Virus record (IMG/VR): IMGVR_UViG_3300050821_010438
Coordinates: 1-36,474 of that record
Origin: a virus
Strand: one strand, 5' to 3'
DNA length: 36,474 nucleotides
Shown: positions 10,983-23,103 of the stretch, piece after piece
How the letters are laid out: each line of letters begins with the position of its first letter
Position numbering within the stretch: the first letter of the stretch is position 1
Program-made: the position numbers and the translations under genes
The notes under the pieces: model-generated
What the model saw: the letters and a program-made list of their open reading frames with translations, nothing else
Told to the model about the DNA's origin: nothing
Databases searched by the model: none

Positions 10983-11567
10983 CTAAAGATGTATATGATT
11001 TTTTAAATAATTAACTGCTTTATGCAGTAAGTCCATATCATCCTTGAAGCCACCAAGTCCTTTATTGCATTCATGACAAAGTAAACCCCTAACATTTAAT
11101 AATCCTTTGTGTCCTTCATCCCTACATAAGTGGCAATGATCAACACATAAGGGAGCTATATCTCCGCTCTTTCCTTTTCTCTTCTCTTCTAACCCACAAA
11201 TTTTACACCTATGGTTTTGTTCTTCAAATAATGAATCGTACTCCTCCAATGTTAATCCATGAATTCTTGAAACCTCCATCTTTCTTACCTTAATGATTCC
11301 ATGTTTTTTAATATAATTTTCTTCATAACGTTTATATTTATCAGGATTAAGTATCCTATCTTGTCTTTCCCATTCGTTATGATGTGGTCTATTTTCTTTT
11401 TTCCATTTAATAGAATACTCAATCCTGCTTTCTCTGTTTAAATCATAAGATTTTTTATTGGTCTCAATCCTACATTTTTTACATCTAAATAAATGACCAT
11501 CTTTTCTAGTTTGATCAATTTTTAATGGGCCATGTATCTTACAAATTTTTACTATTTCATCTGACAT
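10983..11567 (-). CDS. Recombination endonuclease VII-like protein
   Basis: 194 residues. The C-terminal half has the endonuclease VII pattern: CKIC (C121, C124), VDHCH (D143, H144, H146), then VRGLLCHECNKGLG (C164, C167, N168) and a terminal NYLKNH helix. The four cysteines bind structural zinc and the DHxH/N residues form the metal-dependent nuclease site. A second cysteine set (C9, C29, C32) lies at the N-terminus. The family includes phage T4 gp49, which resolves branched DNA before packaging, and many free-standing homing-type enzymes. Here it stands between gp4-like and gp10-like genes with its own promoter-like sequence, so a mobile origin is plausible. Confidence 0.8.
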   Translation of the reverse strand: MSDEIVKICKIHGPLKIDQTRKDGHLFRCKKCRIETNKKSYDLNRESRIEYSIKWKKENRPHHNEWERQDRILNPDKYKRYEENYIKKHGIIKVRKMEVSRIHGLTLEEYDSLFEEQNHRCKICGLEEKRKGKSGDIAPLCVDHCHLCRDEGHKGLLNVRGLLCHECNKGLGGFKDDMDLLHKAVNYLKNHIHL

Positions 11568-13405: not shown

Positions 13406-14722
13406 TTAACCTTGTGATAGAGGAATGACATAACGCATGGAGTACTCAGGTACAATCACTGAGCCATGGGTTTCATCATAAATCATACCAGTTTGGTTTT
13501 GACCAAACAAAGAACCGTATGTCAATCGAAGTGATGCACCTGTGTCATCATCATATTCGTTGGCAGTTGGGTAGGGGCTTTGTTCAGGCAACTGAGGCAT
13601 AGCAAGATATGCAGCATCCCCACCTAAAATACCACCACATCTGTGAGAGGGTAGGCCAAGAATCTGCATTCCAGCTACAATTGGATTATTTAGGTTTTGG
13701 TTTTGACCACCTGCCCAGTTTAATGCTGGTGTTATGTTAATTGTTACAACACCTGAAGAGTTAGAAGCAGCATTGGCAGTTGCTCTGAATTGGACTGGGT
13801 TTGCAGATGGGAAATGTCCAATAAATGTTAAGTAACGCATGTTTGGCTGACCACTAACACCGTCTTGGAAGCTAAATAAATCGCCTGCAAGAACAGCGCT
13901 TGAATCACTAGCAGTAGCACCAGAAACAGTGATTTGCGTTACATTTTGACCTGTTGGGTCGTTAGTTGAAACAACGGTCAAAGTATTTTGGTTAATACCA
14001 GTATTTCCTGAAACATGAATTGGCATTAAGTTTGATTGATAATATGAAACAAGAGGTGTTCCAAAATCACCAACTTCCCAGCTCATTGCAATTTCATCAT
14101 TACGGTGTGGAACAAATTGGTTTAATCCATTACCTACAACAGAAGGAACCACTGTATCTGGCAGATAAACCTTAATGCCTTCAGCTACAGAACCATAGTT
14201 TTTAAAGAACATAATGGCTTGTGCCAATTGTTGGTAGGAGCTAATTGCAGTTGTACCATTACCATAATATCGATAAGGACCTGAGAATGTATTTGTAGTA
14301 CCGTCTAGTTGGCTAACTACTGCAGATGCCCAGTTAAGAGCGATATTACCTTCAACTAAAGCTGCAAGTTCAGCAATTGCTGATTTCCCAAAGACTCGCA
14401 TGTAGTCTTCTTCGCCTTTTTCCAAGTTAAATATTCTTTGTTGTGAGGTCACAGCGAAAGAAGTATTGTTAGCCTGATCACAAGCTAGAGATTGAACTCT
14501 TTGAACAGCTGGCTGAAAGGCTGCAACCAAACCTGCTGTGGTTGTAAATCTTGGGGGCAAATCAAAGGTTACTACAGAACCTAGGTTTGCTTGAATGTTA
14601 TCAAAGTCTTTAAATTTAGTATTGAATGTTGAAATATGGCAACATAAGTTTTGTAATAGTGCCAAACCTGATCGTTGGTATGTTTCTACCTGTTTTAAAA
14701 TATTTGTAGGGAAAACAGCCAT
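13406..14722 (-). CDS. Major coat (capsid) protein, P22 gp5-like HK97 fold
   Basis: 438 residues, close to the 430 of P22 gp5. The N-terminus MAVFPTNILKQVETYQRSGLALLQNL and later PPRFTTTAGLVAAFQPAVQRVQSLACDQ fit the P22 coat family, whose HK97 core carries an inserted domain (here probably the Ser/Thr-rich residues about 240-320). It directly follows the scaffold gene, as expected for procapsid assembly. A 9-bp hairpin covers its ribosome site (see 14732..14758), suggesting that coat synthesis is tuned by RNA structure. Confidence is high from length, neighbours and N-terminal pattern. Confidence 0.85.
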   Translation of the reverse strand: MAVFPTNILKQVETYQRSGLALLQNLCCHISTFNTKFKDFDNIQANLGSVVTFDLPPRFTTTAGLVAAFQPAVQRVQSLACDQANNTSFAVTSQQRIFNLEKGEEDYMRVFGKSAIAELAALVEGNIALNWASAVVSQLDGTTNTFSGPYRYYGNGTTAISSYQQLAQAIMFFKNYGSVAEGIKVYLPDTVVPSVVGNGLNQFVPHRNDEIAMSWEVGDFGTPLVSYYQSNLMPIHVSGNTGINQNTLTVVSTNDPTGQNVTQITVSGATASDSSAVLAGDLFSFQDGVSGQPNMRYLTFIGHFPSANPVQFRATANAASNSSGVVTINITPALNWAGGQNQNLNNPIVAGMQILGLPSHRCGGILGGDAAYLAMPQLPEQSPYPTANEYDDDTGASLRLTYGSLFGQNQTGMIYDETHGSVIVPEYSMRYVIPLSQG

Positions 14723-14772: not shown

Positions 14773-15492
14773 CTATGCCCGATATTTACGCTTTAAATCA
14801 CTCATAGACAAAGAACCACCCGAATCCGTGCCAGTGTTAGAAGGTCTTTGTTGTGACAATGGTGCTTTAGAGTTTTTCATTTGCGAGCTTTGATCATTTT
14901 CTTTTATTGAATCTGACAAACGCTTCATCTCGTAAACGGCATCTTCCGGTCGATCTGAATAAAATCTTTCAAAATCATATAATTTAGAACGATTTTTAGC
15001 CAAGTGATATAAGACATCGGCGCTATTATCCACGTGTTCCGCTAAAAGCTGAACAACGCCTGGATATTGGTCCATCCTTACACTATTGGCTACAGAATCA
15101 AAATCCTCATACTTGTCTTTTCCGGCTATAATCTTTTCACCAAACATACGGACGATACGGTTAGCTGCCTCTACATTTGAGCGCTCTTGTGCCTCATTTT
15201 GTAATTCCGTAAAATGGCTTTTAATCCTATCATCTGTAACTCGCTTTATATCTTCTTCAGACATATTGCGATATTGGCTAGGTTCATGATTAGTCGTACT
15301 TTGAGAGCTGATTGCAGTTTGTGCCTGAGACCTCTTGTATGCCTCTACCGCGCGTTCTGCTGCCTCTCTCTTAGCATTGCCAACTATTTCATTAACCTGA
15401 GACTGTGGAATCGATTTCTCGATAACTTGAGCAATCGGTTCAACTGATGCCTGACTTGTATCAGACGCATTATCCATAACACTATTATCCAT
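14773..15492 (-). CDS. Scaffolding protein (putative)
   Basis: 239 residues, hydrophilic and helical, with no cysteine-rich or membrane region: a Ser/Gln-rich N-terminus, a central helical part (EEDIKRVTDDRIKSHFTELQNEAQE), and a short basic C-terminal helix (LSMSDLKRKYRA). A basic helix-loop-helix C-terminus is how P22 gp8 binds coat protein, though gp8 is longer (303 residues). It stands between portal-side genes and coat, the P22 position of gene 8. The 5' leader contains the tandem structured element at 15516..15625. Scaffold identity is inferred from place and composition. Confidence 0.7.
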   Translation of the reverse strand: MDNSVMDNASDTSQASVEPIAQVIEKSIPQSQVNEIVGNAKREAAERAVEAYKRSQAQTAISSQSTTNHEPSQYRNMSEEDIKRVTDDRIKSHFTELQNEAQERSNVEAANRIVRMFGEKIIAGKDKYEDFDSVANSVRMDQYPGVVQLLAEHVDNSADVLYHLAKNRSKLYDFERFYSDRPEDAVYEMKRLSDSIKENDQSSQMKNSKAPLSQQRPSNTGTDSGGSLSMSDLKRKYRA

Positions 15493-15515
15493 AAAATCCC
15501 TTCAGCTTTTGCCCC

Positions 15516-15566
15516 GCTACGGTAGTTCCTCTGCATGTCGCACAGGTCTCGGATTATTTCGCCATC
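15516..15566 (-). ncRNA. Tandem structured leader element, scaffold-proximal copy
   Basis: 51-base unit on the minus strand, beginning GATGGCGA and ending TAGC, about 25 bases upstream of the scaffold ATG. Its core is a hairpin CTGTG-CGACA-TGCAG preceded by CGAGAC. The neighbouring copy (15569..15625) keeps GATGGCGA, CGAGAC, the GCGAYAT loop region, AGG or GGG and TAGC, but has TCTTG-CGATA-TGAGA as hairpin. Three of five base pairs differ by paired changes. The region is notably GC-richer than the surrounding DNA and contains no plausible reading frame. Likely a cis-acting RNA in the late-operon leader; no named family could be assigned. Confidence 0.5.
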
Positions 15567-15568
15567 AC

Positions 15569-15625
15569 GCTATTAACGCCCCTCTCATATCGCAAGAGTC
15601 TCGATGACACGGAAATATCGCCATC
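15569..15625 (-). ncRNA. Tandem structured leader element, distal copy
   Basis: 57-base unit, minus strand, separated from the other copy by two bases. It shares GATGGCGA, CGAGAC and TAGC blocks with it and contains six extra bases before CGAGAC. The hairpin TCTTG-CGATA-TGAGA conserves the loop and the two wobble pairs nearest to it. Upstream (15626-15660) the string AGAGGGTGACCACCG may be a decayed third copy's end. The remaining noncoding bases up to 15801 are AT-rich and show no further gene. Confidence 0.5.
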
Positions 15626-15801
15626 CCTGGCTTTATCATTTTCCGGTGGTCACCCTCTGAATTTATTTAACTATTGGATTATTAACAATAATTTTGATTA
15701 TAATTGATGACCAATGAATATATATGGATGCTGATTTATAACTTTGAATGCTTTATGCTTTAAAAGGAACGATAGGAGTACATTTGATTAAGGATGATAA
15801 A

Positions 15802-15996
15802 ATGATTATAATCTCAGGCGAGAAATATCTTAGAGAAAAGGAAATAGCTTCTAAATATGGACTATCTACTCAATGGTTTAGGCGTGCTAGATATAGCCAT
15901 AATAGCCCTGTGTACCATAAATTACATGGTAAAGTATATTACAAAGAAGAAAATGTTGAGCAATGGTTTAAAGAAAAATTAAAGGATAATAAATGA
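15802..15996 (+). CDS. Small helix-turn-helix protein (AlpA/excisionase-like)
   Basis: 64 residues from the ATG at 15802, chosen for AAGGAT about six bases upstream; a TTG at 15784 behind AGGAG is an alternative. LREKEIASKYGLSTQWFRRARY matches the winged-helix MerR/AlpA type used by excisionases and small regulators, followed by KVYYKEENVEQWFKEKL, the usual wing and last helix. It reads against the surrounding structural operon and overlaps the next gene as ATGA. It may regulate the adjoining divergent leader, or be a small accessory (moron-like) gene. DNA binding is well supported; target is unknown. Confidence 0.7.
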   Translation: MIIISGEKYLREKEIASKYGLSTQWFRRARYSHNSPVYHKLHGKVYYKEENVEQWFKEKLKDNK

Positions 15997-18398: not shown

Positions 18399-18905
18399 TT
18401 ATTCGTCCTTAAATTGATAATAAATTTTATAGCAAGTACTTTTGCTAACACCATAAGACAATGCAAGATTAGATATTGAATGCCCTTTCAATATTTTTTC
18501 GTAAATTTCTTTACGATGATCATGCGTTAAAATTGGGTTTTTTGACCATCTATCCCTTTTTTTATTAAACATATCTTTTGTGTTAACTTTTGCTGAGCTT
18601 AAAAATAAGTGCTCTGGATTAACACATCTTCTATTATCACATTTATGAGCGACGTAAGTGTTTTCAGGCACTTTCACTTCAAAATGTAATTCGAATGCAA
18701 ACCTATGAACATATACTGGTTTGCCATTTAATCCCATTGTTCCATAACCTTTTGGCCTTGTATATCCTAGCCAATTTATACAGCCATTTATATCTGGTTC
18801 ACTACACTTTAGTTTAAATCTATTTTCCGGTGTGTTTTCTATTTTCTTTAACCAATATCCAGGAACGTATTTTCTTGGATCATTATTTGTTTTAGTTTTA
18901 TGCAT
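18399..18905 (-). CDS. HNH homing-type endonuclease with C-terminal HTH
   Basis: 168 residues from ATG 18905, chosen because AAAGGAGG lies directly upstream; a frame extension to 18953 exists. The HNH_3-type core reads YVHRFAFEL (H67) and AHKCDNRRCVNPEHLF (residues 86-101, with C89, C94, N96 and H99), then NTKDM and KKRDRWSKN. A C-terminal helix-turn-helix (GHSISNLALSYGVSKSTCYK, residues 141-160) would add DNA specificity. Free-standing HNH genes of this build are usually mobile intruders in phage genomes. It interrupts the run of basic small proteins. Confidence 0.85.
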   Translation of the reverse strand: MHKTKTNNDPRKYVPGYWLKKIENTPENRFKLKCSEPDINGCINWLGYTRPKGYGTMGLNGKPVYVHRFAFELHFEVKVPENTYVAHKCDNRRCVNPEHLFLSSAKVNTKDMFNKKRDRWSKNPILTHDHRKEIYEKILKGHSISNLALSYGVSKSTCYKIYYQFKDE

Positions 18906-18936
18906 AGCGCCTCCTTTTTTAGAGATGCTATAGTTT

Positions 18937-19092
18937 TCATCTTTTCTTTGCAACCTTTTTCTTCTTCTTCTGACCCGCTTCGCTATAAGCAGCAGCTACA
19001 CTTTGTTTGACTGGATGCCCTGCATCTACCATCTCTTTAATATTATCTTTAAATCCTTTGCTACCAGGCTTAGCACCTTTCTTAAGTGGCAT
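18937..19092 (-). CDS. Small basic protein (MPLKKG type)
   Basis: 51 residues from ATG 19092: MPLKKGAKPGSKGFKDNIKE, then MVDAGHPVKQSVAAAYSEAG and a final KKKKKVAKKR tail. This layout, with a central GxPxKQxVAAAY helix between lysine-rich ends, recurs in small uncharacterised proteins of many tailed phages. Starts one base after the upstream stop (TGAGATG). Likely virion- or DNA-associated; function not established. Confidence 0.7.
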   Translation of the reverse strand: MPLKKGAKPGSKGFKDNIKEMVDAGHPVKQSVAAAYSEAGQKKKKKVAKKR

Positions 19093-19270: not shown

Positions 19271-19415
19271 AATTCGCTCCGTGAATTAAATAGTCCTTGT
19301 AAACTTGTTCAAAAGTAGAGCCTGTCAGTTCCTTGACAAACTCCTCAAATGTAATCGAATCACTGTACCCGTCTGGGTACCGATTCTCAATGTGCTCTGG
19401 CTCTGTGCTTTTCAT
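19245..19415 (-). CDS. Small acidic hypothetical protein
   Basis: 56 residues from ATG 19415, which lies inside the end of the portal gene (29-base overlap). Sequence MKSTEPEHIENRYPDGYSDS, then ITFEEFVKELTGSTFEQVYKDY. Composition is protein-like and the frame fills the gap between the portal and the 58-residue gene. Ribosome site weak (AAAGAAAGA). Function unknown. Confidence 0.45.
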   Translation of the reverse strand: MKSTEPEHIENRYPDGYSDSITFEEFVKELTGSTFEQVYKDYLIHGANYEQKSDLE

Positions 19416-21501
19416 GGTCTTTCTTTATATTATGGTGTGTTTCAATAGCTTCTTTTGTATGCCTATGATGTTGATCATGCCCTCGTAACTCCAAATCAAC
19501 TTGCTTTGCAAAGCGCTCGGTTAATGCCTTTACCAATTGTACATTGGCCGATTCTTTCCCCAAATGCAAGTCTGCCATAATTTTCTTCTCATCTTGTTCT
19601 AATTTCGCCATATCTAATTGAAAATCCATTTGTGATTTCTGCTGTGCTTGCTGCATTTTAGCCATTTCAATCTGACCTTTCATAGCAGCTGGATTTTGTT
19701 GTGCTTGTTGTTGTTGAGCCTGCATGGCCTGAGCCTTTTCTTTCTGGTATTGCTCAACCCATTCTTTGGTAAGCGCTTTAAGCTCTTCTATGCCTTTTCC
19801 TTCCATATTGTCTAGAATAAAGTTTAATCCCTTCTCAGCCATAAATTGTGAGAATAGAGGAGACATGCCCATCATCTCTTTAATCATCATAATGGTTCTT
19901 GATTTTTGAACCTGGAAGCTTGCCCCCGCTTTGATAGCCACATTTAATACATTGGTATCAAATTCCATTGGCATGCCTTGGGATTGATTAATTTTTACAA
20001 AATGTCTTTTTCCATCCTCATCTATTATTGGAATTGTTCTAGGTGTAGTCATATATTTAGGCATTAAATCCACATAGACTTGTGCAAGACGCTGAAATCC
20101 TTGGAGGCACCCAACTACATATGGCATCGCAGTTGCATTAGATTGTGAGGCACCTTCTACGATTGCAATACCAGACAATTGATTATTATTAATGCCAAGA
20201 GAAGCATCGTATGAACCCAATACATTTTGGATAAGTGAATCTGATCCGGTAAAGGCTTGACTAATTTCCGGTGGCGCTGGAATTCTTTGAACCTCTCGGA
20301 TAGGATTGCTGATAGGCATCTCAGGGTTTGATTCATGCACAGAGTTATAAACCAATACGGATTCTTTCTGAACATCCTTGTATGCATCCAGAAATTGCTC
20401 CTCTTTAGGTAGAGCCTCTTTTGCCACCATGAACTTATGCTGTACCGTATTTTCAATCTCATTCGCAAGCGAAATACCCGCATAATTCTTAAGCCTTTGC
20501 GCACCTTTTGCATGATAAACATAGGGCCTCGTTACCTGGTGTATATTGCCATTCAATGGTGTCTTTATCATCAAGGAGTTACCATCGATAAAGACAATAG
20601 GAAGAAAGGAGAAATCCGTTTCTTCATATTCTAAAACTTGATTCTCGATTAACCTGTAACGCACAATCTTATCAAGAATGGTTTTACGAGGTTTGCCAAC
20701 TAAGGATGGCGGAACAGTAATATCATCCCATTCATCAACTAATTTCCTATAAGCTGATTGAGTCATGACCTTGCCGTCACGTACCTGTACTATTGTTTCT
20801 TCTTTTTGTTTTTTCTCGTAATAATCAGCAACTACTATGATTTTACTATTGTCATTAAGATATGACCAATTAAACCCTGCGAAATCTCGCCTAAAACTTA
20901 ATGAATTAGTTGGGATATCAGGATATTCCACCATGAATTCATCTTTGCTTTTTGGATATAACTCGAAGCAAAAGCTACCATCCCCCTTATGAGACATGCG
21001 CGCAAGCTTATCAAACCCAGTTAATGTTGGCTCACATTTTGTGAATTTGATAACCTGATTCATAGACATGGGATGTTCATAATCAGTATATACCTTTACG
21101 GCTGAAAAACCACCAGATAGTAGGTCCTTATAAACTTCATAGCGCAGGTGCTCATTATCATTGTCCATAAAGACATGCTTTAGATGTTGCTCAACAACTT
21201 TTATAGTGATAGGATCGGCTTGGTCTTCATCATAAGCATTGACCTCGATATCTGGCTCTTGCTTTGAGAACTCACCAAGTAATCGGCTAAGATAGGCTTC
21301 TAGAACATTGAATTCTAGTTGTGGTCTTCCCATAGTCATAAGAAGAGTTACTTCATCATTTGTAAGTGATGATTCAAATACAAACTTTCTATATTCAGTA
21401 TAGCGATCGTAGTTACTCTTAAAATAATCATGCGCATTTCTAACTGATTTTTTAATGCGAGCAAGATTATCCTGGTAACGATTTGCTACATCCTTTGTCA
21501 T
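19387..21501 (-). CDS. Portal protein, P22 gp1-like
   Basis: 704 residues, against 725 in P22. The N-terminal YQDNLARIKKSVRNAHDYFKSNYDRYTEYRKF, the LLTMGRPQLEFNVLEAYLSRLLGEFSKQEPDIEV segment (given in part) and the NNNQLSGIAIVEGASQSNA region are typical of P22-type portals. The C-terminus (residues about 590-690) is Gln/Ala/Lys-rich and helical, matching the long helical barrel of P22 gp1. A dodecamer at one capsid vertex would act as DNA channel, packaging-motor dock and headful sensor. Follows the large terminase by 57 bases. Its extreme C-terminus is His/Lys-rich. Confidence 0.9.
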   Translation of the reverse strand: MTKDVANRYQDNLARIKKSVRNAHDYFKSNYDRYTEYRKFVFESSLTNDEVTLLMTMGRPQLEFNVLEAYLSRLLGEFSKQEPDIEVNAYDEDQADPITIKVVEQHLKHVFMDNDNEHLRYEVYKDLLSGGFSAVKVYTDYEHPMSMNQVIKFTKCEPTLTGFDKLARMSHKGDGSFCFELYPKSKDEFMVEYPDIPTNSLSFRRDFAGFNWSYLNDNSKIIVVADYYEKKQKEETIVQVRDGKVMTQSAYRKLVDEWDDITVPPSLVGKPRKTILDKIVRYRLIENQVLEYEETDFSFLPIVFIDGNSLMIKTPLNGNIHQVTRPYVYHAKGAQRLKNYAGISLANEIENTVQHKFMVAKEALPKEEQFLDAYKDVQKESVLVYNSVHESNPEMPISNPIREVQRIPAPPEISQAFTGSDSLIQNVLGSYDASLGINNNQLSGIAIVEGASQSNATAMPYVVGCLQGFQRLAQVYVDLMPKYMTTPRTIPIIDEDGKRHFVKINQSQGMPMEFDTNVLNVAIKAGASFQVQKSRTIMMIKEMMGMSPLFSQFMAEKGLNFILDNMEGKGIEELKALTKEWVEQYQKEKAQAMQAQQQQAQQNPAAMKGQIEMAKMQQAQQKSQMDFQLDMAKLEQDEKKIMADLHLGKESANVQLVKALTERFAKQVDLELRGHDQHHRHTKEAIETHHNIKKDHEKHRARAH

Positions 21502-21558: not shown

Positions 21559-23103
21559 TTACCTAACATAAGCACTTTTCCTTAATCTTTGAATTTTATT
21601 CGTGTGACTTGATAAATCACGTGCTACTTCATTATAATTTGTAGCATTCACATGTGATGATATCAATGTCTTTTCAATCAAGGCAATCCTGATTGCATCT
21701 GCTGCTGTATCTGCAATATCATCCCAGCGATGTGTTTCATTTGCTGTAATTTTGCTCATATGCTCAATACATAACTTAACATGGCGACCATTATTAGGGA
21801 AAGATATTCTTCTTTCTGCAATATAAGGCTGAACAGCTAAGAATCTTTTGGTTTTATTACCTTGTTCTCGAGTGCGTGGAATATCAACAGCTCTTATCGT
21901 TCTAATTTCATCGATTAAACTAAGCAAGGTACCACCTGTGGATTTTTTTTCAATAGCAACCATCTGTGGAGGCTGTTTATAACGCATGCATTGAGACCAA
22001 AACTCTAAAAATGTATCTTTTAAGTCTTTTGGTTCAATACGACACTCTAATGTATCTATCCAGTGAAGACCATATTGACCCGTCTTAACCTCATAAGATT
22101 CAATATCATAAATTCCCCAAAAGCTAAAAACTGTTGCATCATTGTATGATTTTGAAGTCTCGGCGGTATCACAGGTAATAAAGCTATAAATGATTTGTGG
22201 GTCTTCATCTAATATTACAAACCATTCAGGCTTAAAGAGTGCGCCACCTGCAGGAATTGGGTCTTGTTGATATTGGGAAGCAAAGACATAAGGGTCTGTC
22301 TCTTGCTTCTTCAAGAGTTTAGCAAGTGTGTCTACTTCAGGATAAAGTGCATTTCCTGCCTCATCTATGCTTTTAAGAATCACGTGATGCCATTTATATC
22401 CATCTTTTCCATTAATGAGATAAGACCCTAAGTCGTCTTCATGGAGTCTTTGTCCGATGAAAATGAAGGGAACATTGATACCACGTGCCCTTTGCTGTAT
22501 TGTTTCTCGATAATTGTCGATAACTGATACTCGAATTGTGTCACTATGTACTTCATCTGGTTTATGTGCGTCATCAATAATGACCGCGCCTGAAAATCTG
22601 TTAAGCCCTGGCAATCCAGCGTCCTGGCCAGTAATCGCACCTCCGCTACCAAATGCTGCGACAGCCCCGCCATTTGTAGTCTGGAAATACTCTCTAGCTT
22701 TGCTGTCATGTCTAATCCTTACATTAAATAAAAATTGATATTGGGATAACTGCATAATACGCTTAATTGTCTCTGTATGCTTTGCCGCCAACACTTTAGA
22801 GTATGATATGTATAAGAACCTTGAATCTGGAAAACTTGCCATGGTCCATGCTACCCACATAGCAAGTAAGGTGGATTTTCCTGAGCCTGGACTTACATTG
22901 ATTAAGAGCTTGTGGTTAGGTATCTCAAGTCGTGCAGCAGATGTTAGGGCGCGAGCTATGATGATATGGTGTGATTCACGACCTATGGGGTTTGATACAA
23001 TAAACTTACGACCAGTTAGTATAGGGTAAAAGAATTCTGTAAACTCCAGGAAACTACCACGAAGCTTAGATGCGATTGCTTCATCTTCAATGGTAAGTGA
23101 CAT
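21559..23103 (-). CDS. terL: Terminase large subunit
   Basis: 514 residues. Packaging ATPase: Walker A SPGSGKST (residues 71-78), Walker B VIIDD (174-178), and a coupling motif near FIGQRLHEDD (215-224). The C-terminal RNase H-like nuclease has D312 (ITCDTAE), E385 (VAIEKKS) and the D461/D462/D465 cluster (RWDDIADTAADA). These are the conserved acidic residues for two-metal cleavage. It cuts concatemeric DNA and drives it through the portal. The start overlaps the upstream small gene by 17 bases. Genes for small terminase and portal lie on either side, though with about 3.5 kb of small genes before it. Confidence 0.95.
   Translation of the reverse strand: MSLTIEDEAIASKLRGSFLEFTEFFYPILTGRKFIVSNPIGRESHHIIIARALTSAARLEIPNHKLLINVSPGSGKSTLLAMWVAWTMASFPDSRFLYISYSKVLAAKHTETIKRIMQLSQYQFLFNVRIRHDSKAREYFQTTNGGAVAAFGSGGAITGQDAGLPGLNRFSGAVIIDDAHKPDEVHSDTIRVSVIDNYRETIQQRARGINVPFIFIGQRLHEDDLGSYLINGKDGYKWHHVILKSIDEAGNALYPEVDTLAKLLKKQETDPYVFASQYQQDPIPAGGALFKPEWFVILDEDPQIIYSFITCDTAETSKSYNDATVFSFWGIYDIESYEVKTGQYGLHWIDTLECRIEPKDLKDTFLEFWSQCMRYKQPPQMVAIEKKSTGGTLLSLIDEIRTIRAVDIPRTREQGNKTKRFLAVQPYIAERRISFPNNGRHVKLCIEHMSKITANETHRWDDIADTAADAIRIALIEKTLISSHVNATNYNEVARDLSSHTNKIQRLRKSAYVR

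Follow-up and report, generated by a model that had tools for sequence, protein, structure and literature searches.

The window, that is, the whole stretch of DNA that was analysed, is a virus record of 36,474 bases whose gene content is P22-like. The P22-like set is encoded on the minus strand and includes the terminase (21559-23103), portal (19387-21501) and capsid (13406-14722) genes; the scaffold gene (14773-15492, minus strand), the proposed target of leader control, matches the head scaffolding protein family phrog_8865 (E 2e-10). Endonuclease VII-like (10983-11567) and HNH endonuclease (18399-18953) genes, both on the minus strand, are contained in the structural gene block. The element described here lies in a gap of 255 nt that separates the scaffold gene from a small divergent HTH gene (AlpA/excisionase-like; 15748-15996, plus strand, start at 15748), whose counterpart occupies this position in nearly all relatives, with identities down to about 30%. 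Downstream of the leader come about 14 kb of structural genes. Searches against cultured phages gave no match for the leader region (blastn) or for the scaffold (tblastn), and the capsid is only about 22% identical to a cultured-phage capsid. MAG contigs were considered as a pointer to the host and discarded as probably mis-binned.

A sigma70-like promoter is predicted on the minus strand of this gap, with a -35 box TTGTTA (15683-15688), a 17-nt spacer and a -10 box TAAATT (15660-15665). Its consensus is weak when taken alone and a simple promoter scan reported no site at the leader; the call rests on recurrence in relatives, in most of which, when they bear the hairpin P0 described below, the arrangement TTGxxx-17-TAxxxT recurs just upstream of P0 (-35 counterparts TTGTTG, TTGAGT or TTGTTC, with TAxxxT at the same place). 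The transcript is expected to start near 15653. Because the promoter recurs and the divergent HTH gene lies upstream in nearly all relatives, the scaffold-capsid mRNA most likely begins in this gap. The HTH product may act as a controller of the scaffold promoter. Repeated words resembling TTCATAC or TTAATAC were observed in many relatives (for instance L083, L021 and L015) 150-250 nt 5' of the scaffold start and 5' of the predicted -35 box, and are possible binding sites of the HTH protein.

The element consists of two tandem modules of about 50 nt on the minus strand, from 15603 to 15504. A search with model R1, built from 80 modules including the window's own two copies, recovers two copies at full length, with E values of 4e-15 and 2e-14, and no further convincing copies in the window, and the tandem repeat reported in the original prediction is therefore real. 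The words described there (GATGGCGA, CGAGAC, CGAYA and TAGC) are all present, on the minus strand; the copy boundaries were misplaced. In the alignment of relatives the two modules start at CGAGAC, or a variant of it, just 5' of the Shine-Dalgarno sequence, which sets module 1 at 15603-15552 and module 2 at 15551-15504, both beginning at CGAGAC. In this register GATGGCGA and TAGC can no longer be counted as words common to both copies, since they are drawn from different parts of the element. The first GATGGCGA is the 3' half of the separate upstream hairpin P0 (part of its A-N-GGA-N loop plus stem), the second is a piece of the module 1 pseudoknot and hence no homologue of the first, and the TAGC at the two copy ends likewise belongs to two different parts. 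Each module comprises two short H-type pseudoknots, and the order of the whole array is a1-b1-a2-b2.

Pseudoknot a1 (15581-15603, minus strand) is formed by CG 15603-15602 with CG 15592-15591 and by CTCT 15598-15595 with AGAG 15585-15582. Pseudoknot a2 (15528-15551, minus strand) is formed by CG 15551-15550 with CG 15540-15539 and by CTG with CAG, the next C-G pair closing over a bulged A. In the first stem of the a pseudoknots, stem S1, the first two bases of the module (1-2) pair with bases 12-13 in the loop, so that the partner of the loop CG is the CG of CGAGAC. Across relatives this stem is found as CG/CG, GT/AC, AG/CT, GG/CC, GC/GC and CA/TG. In alignment A4 (45 sequences), which was hand-assembled from units at leader positions and is thus mildly selected, most failing units there having been kept, 84% of the cells are paired and covariation reaches 0.834, against 0.20 after shuffling and at most 0.23 after sliding. 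Units without the initial CG match stem S1 in 26 of 44 cases (shuffled maximum 19 in 2000 trials), a set that includes some stretches outside real units. The outer pairs of the second stem, S2, also covary, and the AC that follows the first four bases is conserved and unpaired.

The original prediction had drawn one hairpin per copy, with two fixed wobble pairs by the loop. Its outer pairs (TCT/AGA and CTG/CAG) are real and covary; the fold is a pseudoknot rather than a hairpin, and the second pseudoknot of each copy had been missed. The two wobble pairs do not make a good helix, as they fail in 24 and 32 cells over 80 units and pair in only 58-69% of units. A plain hairpin including them was rejected, since these pairs fail in about one third of the units and the loop CG covaries with bases 1-2.

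The b pseudoknots follow the consensus xxGU-yyy-G-x'x'-G-UAAUA-y'y'y', which pairs crosswise both in 48 two-module leaders (alignment A1) and in 80 single modules (A2). In b1 (15552-15571, minus strand) GC/GC pairs 15570-15569 with 15562-15561 and GAT/ATC pairs 15566-15564 with 15554-15552; b2 (15504-15523, minus strand) has a CC/GG stem and an AGC/GCT stem and ends at the Shine-Dalgarno sequence. The x stem is 100% paired (CC/GG, GC/GC or CG/CG) and the y stem 97-100%, with every y pair changing on both sides. None of 500 shuffles reaches the observed covariation, which collapses when the partner strand is slid. A further set was obtained by a DNA pattern search in which y1, y2 and y3' were left free: y2-y2' is paired in 46 of 46 cases (shuffle maximum 40), and y1-y3' is paired in 32 of 46, which exceeds the mean of the shuffles (22) but no more than equals their maximum. 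The first b pseudoknot of remote phages shows total turnover of sequence with pairing kept, as in CGCA-GATG-TGCG-gataaaa-CATC and CGT-AGCCAT-ACG-ggataa-ATGGCT; the excess of such matches in the scan is modest (35/46 vs 66/138 for shuffles), and therefore the individual examples of turnover, not the count, carry the weight. The unpaired bases A, GU, G and AAUA are conserved. On the sense strand G-U pairs are tolerated (27) and A-C pairs are rare (4), which, together with the crossing helices, indicates single-stranded sense RNA. Since their stems are only 2-4 and 3-5 bp long, it is uncertain whether the pseudoknots would be stable unless bound by a ligand.

The original proposal that the scaffold leader is under selection for RNA structure is strongly supported: compensatory changes on both sides were found in dozens of related phages, neither the pairing nor the covariation observed is reached in any of 500 shuffles, and pairing falls from 90-94% to 32-60% when the partner strand is slid. 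Stops in all three sense frames show that the region is not coding. Folding of the single leader sequence gave no signal relative to shuffles (z -0.06 and +1.05) and was judged uninformative because the method cannot model pseudoknots. Neither the window nor any of 11 relatives scored at the gathering threshold of any Rfam family (4227 searched), and permissive Rfam searches returned chance-level hits only. By these comparisons the element represents a genuine family of structured RNA for which the libraries searched contain no description.

Searches with the scaffold and capsid proteins yielded more than 100 loci, 68 of them with distinct leaders, the window included. Model R1 matched 45 further records at the scaffold leader, 42 with an adjacent pair and 3 with a single copy, and found no convincing copies elsewhere in those records, the remaining hits being short and weak. 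A gene-blind search with a DNA pattern recovered 58 new contigs, of which 54 carry a scaffold homologue, even at a capsid identity of 34-50%; the remaining 4 are cut short or have a capsid match only. As judged from these alignments, the element is conserved by matched mutations in a large, mostly uncultured phage family.

The position of the array relative to the start site is constrained. The Shine-Dalgarno sequence of the scaffold gene, GAAGGG (15498-15503, minus strand), is followed by an A and thus contains an A-N-GGA as well. The distance from the end of b2 to the AGG is 0-5 nt in every leader scored (seven leaders gave no value, several of them through misassignment of the start codon), and the spacing between module 1 and module 2 is free, from 0 to about 35 nt. 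Six relatives (L110, L113, L117, L129, L131 and L135) carry inserts of 27-35 nt between intact modules, some of which can form hairpins. We take the fixed distance to the Shine-Dalgarno sequence, together with the free distance between modules, as the best evidence that the element acts at translation initiation. Among the roles suggested in the original prediction, regulation of late translation therefore fits best, given that the 3' pseudoknot abuts the Shine-Dalgarno sequence.

Upstream of the array, the predicted 5' end of the mRNA is occupied by hairpin P0 (15604-15654, minus strand), composed of an outer stem and an inner GCC/GGC stem. Its hexaloop AGGGAT (15623-15628, minus strand) has the form A-N-GGA-N, a CsrA/RsmA-type site, and recurs in leaders. 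The inner stem has 4.4 bp with its own partner strand vs 1.8 bp with swapped partners, and the outer stem 6.1 vs 5.2 bp. Of 68 leaders, 42 contain an A-N-GGA-N hairpin (1.35 expected by chance on average, 5 at most), one of these hits, in L095 at -243, being probably due to chance. In the window's clade P0 lies at -128 to -137 from the start codon, with one case at -163. A second A-N-GGA 5' of the hexaloop was observed in 14 of 37 leaders (it lies in the P0 of L005, L022, L024, L030, L032, L033 and L034).

The preferred target of CsrA is a short hairpin that exposes A-N-GGA (PMC7366521), and the leader has such a hairpin loop in P0 and AGGGA at the Shine-Dalgarno sequence, the arrangement of CsrA/RsmA leaders. 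Genes for CsrA were detected in 9 of 44 records searched (L012, L073, L084, L094, L098, L099, L114, L116 and L128), a frequency among relatives far above that of phages at large (30/2517, 1.2%; PMC7366521), and the HREE or HRGE motif is conserved in the five proteins that were read. No csrA was found in the window phage. Among the first 28 records csrA occurs in 1 of 20 with P0 and in 5 of 8 without it. A simple circuit in which phage CsrA acts on P0 does not fit, because csrA is mostly found in records lacking P0; host CsrA may serve the P0-bearing clade. CsrA as ligand of the whole array was rejected, as the more distant members of the family lack P0.

On the whole we favour, with moderate confidence, the interpretation of the leader as a cis-acting translational control element of the scaffold-capsid operon. 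The mRNA would start just upstream of the scaffold gene with a structured 5' leader and continue into the capsid genes; either the array's own folding or a partner bound to it would decide the access of the 30S subunit to the start site, and this access would in turn set the output of scaffold and coupled capsid. The effect on translation, its direction included, is what we infer from such an arrangement. The likeliest partner would be scaffold protein in its unassembled state, by analogy with P22, whose scaffold gene is autoregulated (Wyckoff and Casjens 1985, as cited in PMC5744158). Phage T4 gp32 binds a pseudoknot in its own leader and represses its own translation (PMC3014915). These two precedents make the scaffold the first candidate ligand, a tentative assignment by analogy; at a guess, ribosomal protein S1 or the 30S subunit would come second and RNA polymerase, in a put-like manner, third. 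The scaffold has invariant basic residues (K120, K170 and R216), but no known RNA-binding fold or domain was recognised in it, and the ligand is therefore put forward as a guess. In the window's clade a second input could be provided by CsrA bridging the P0 loop and the A-N-GGA in the Shine-Dalgarno sequence.

The scaffolds of relatives are 28-77% identical to that of the window and the RNA motifs are nonetheless kept. A slowly evolving host partner (the ribosome, protein S1 or RNA polymerase) would therefore fit equally well or better. One such alternative, which we regard as unlikely, is that the pseudoknots bind S1 or the 30S subunit and thereby enhance translation of an operon that is very strongly expressed, with no repressor involved. 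Retention of the motifs despite scaffold divergence is expected of a host partner, and a 5' pseudoknot of the tisB mRNA is needed for binding of S1 and 30S at a standby site (PMC7708055); however, the Shine-Dalgarno sequence (AGAAGG) is strong and not visibly sequestered, so that a standby site is not obviously needed, and four specific pseudoknots are more than the tisB case requires.

Quite unlikely is a put-like antiterminator, also among the roles originally suggested, in which the nascent array would bind RNA polymerase and suppress pausing or termination through the long late operon. The array sits between the predicted promoter, just upstream, and a block of about 14 kb of structural genes, and the put RNA of HK022, a cis-acting structured phage RNA near a promoter, is also two-lobed and of similar length (about 70 nt). 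The put sites are stem-loops found in early operons, two per genome, and bind the zinc-binding domain of RNA polymerase beta' (PMC9378689). The two non-crossing stem-loops and the presence at both early promoters were not found here: there is one late site per genome, made of four crossing-helix pseudoknots, no Rfam family was hit, and the distance to the Shine-Dalgarno sequence and start codon is fixed, which an antiterminator would not need. This suggestion was thus left without support.

More improbable still is that the array stabilises the mRNA by shielding the late transcript at its 5' end against nucleases such as RNase E; the 5' end is structured, P0 would pair the very first nucleotides and the operon is expected to be highly expressed, but simple protection needs neither sequence-specific unpaired bases nor a fixed distance to the Shine-Dalgarno sequence. 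A signal acting as DNA (packaging, recombination or a protein-binding repeat), to which a GC-rich tandem repeat within an AT-rich gap might point, is very improbable given the crossing helices, the tolerance of G-U but not of A-C and the turnover of sequence with pairing kept in remote phages.

With translational control as the preferred reading, the four-pseudoknot array could define a novel class of phage RNA, able to sense scaffold (or coat) protein that is still unassembled and to adjust its own translation to it, one clade being also wired to CsrA; this fuller proposal is speculative. If true, it would provide an RNA-level answer to how scaffold synthesis is coupled with capsid assembly. 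How tailed phages keep the scaffold/capsid ratio right is a long-standing question that is made testable here: compensatory mutants can be taken directly from the covariation, and the element is easily found with a covariance model of the module. In addition, phage csrA genes are tied to a concrete candidate target.

Comparison with known systems places the element close to several of them. It shares with CsrA/RsmA leaders the A-N-GGA-N hexaloop on a stem (P0) and the A-N-GGA at the Shine-Dalgarno sequence; here, however, a stretch of about 115 nt that holds the pseudoknots separates the two sites, and P0 does not extend to the more distant family members. Consecutive small H-type pseudoknots occur in tobamovirus 3' UTRs and in tmRNA, which are likewise tandem but belong to other genomes and to a 3' UTR or a tRNA-mRNA hybrid, and homology is not expected. 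With P22 (scaffold gene 8) the phage shares the P22-like head module, in which scaffold synthesis is the expected control point; to our knowledge no RNA operator is known for P22. In the cultured P22-like phages Shewanella X14 and Vibrio 41E34.2 the portal-scaffold gap of 38-91 nt leaves no room for this leader. The T4 gene 32 operator is alike in being an H-type pseudoknot in a phage mRNA leader 5' of the start codon, with autogenous translational control proposed in this case, and as in gp32-type operators the predicted pseudoknots lie in the leader of the proposed target gene. Gene 32 encodes a ssDNA-binding protein, whereas the gene here is a scaffold gene, and a sequence relation was not seen; T4 has a single pseudoknot, placed 67 nt upstream, together with an A+U stretch that is unstructured, whereas here four stand in a row and end at the Shine-Dalgarno sequence. 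The array would thus represent a second phage leader made of pseudoknots, unrelated to the first, more elaborate and conserved across a wide uncultured group.
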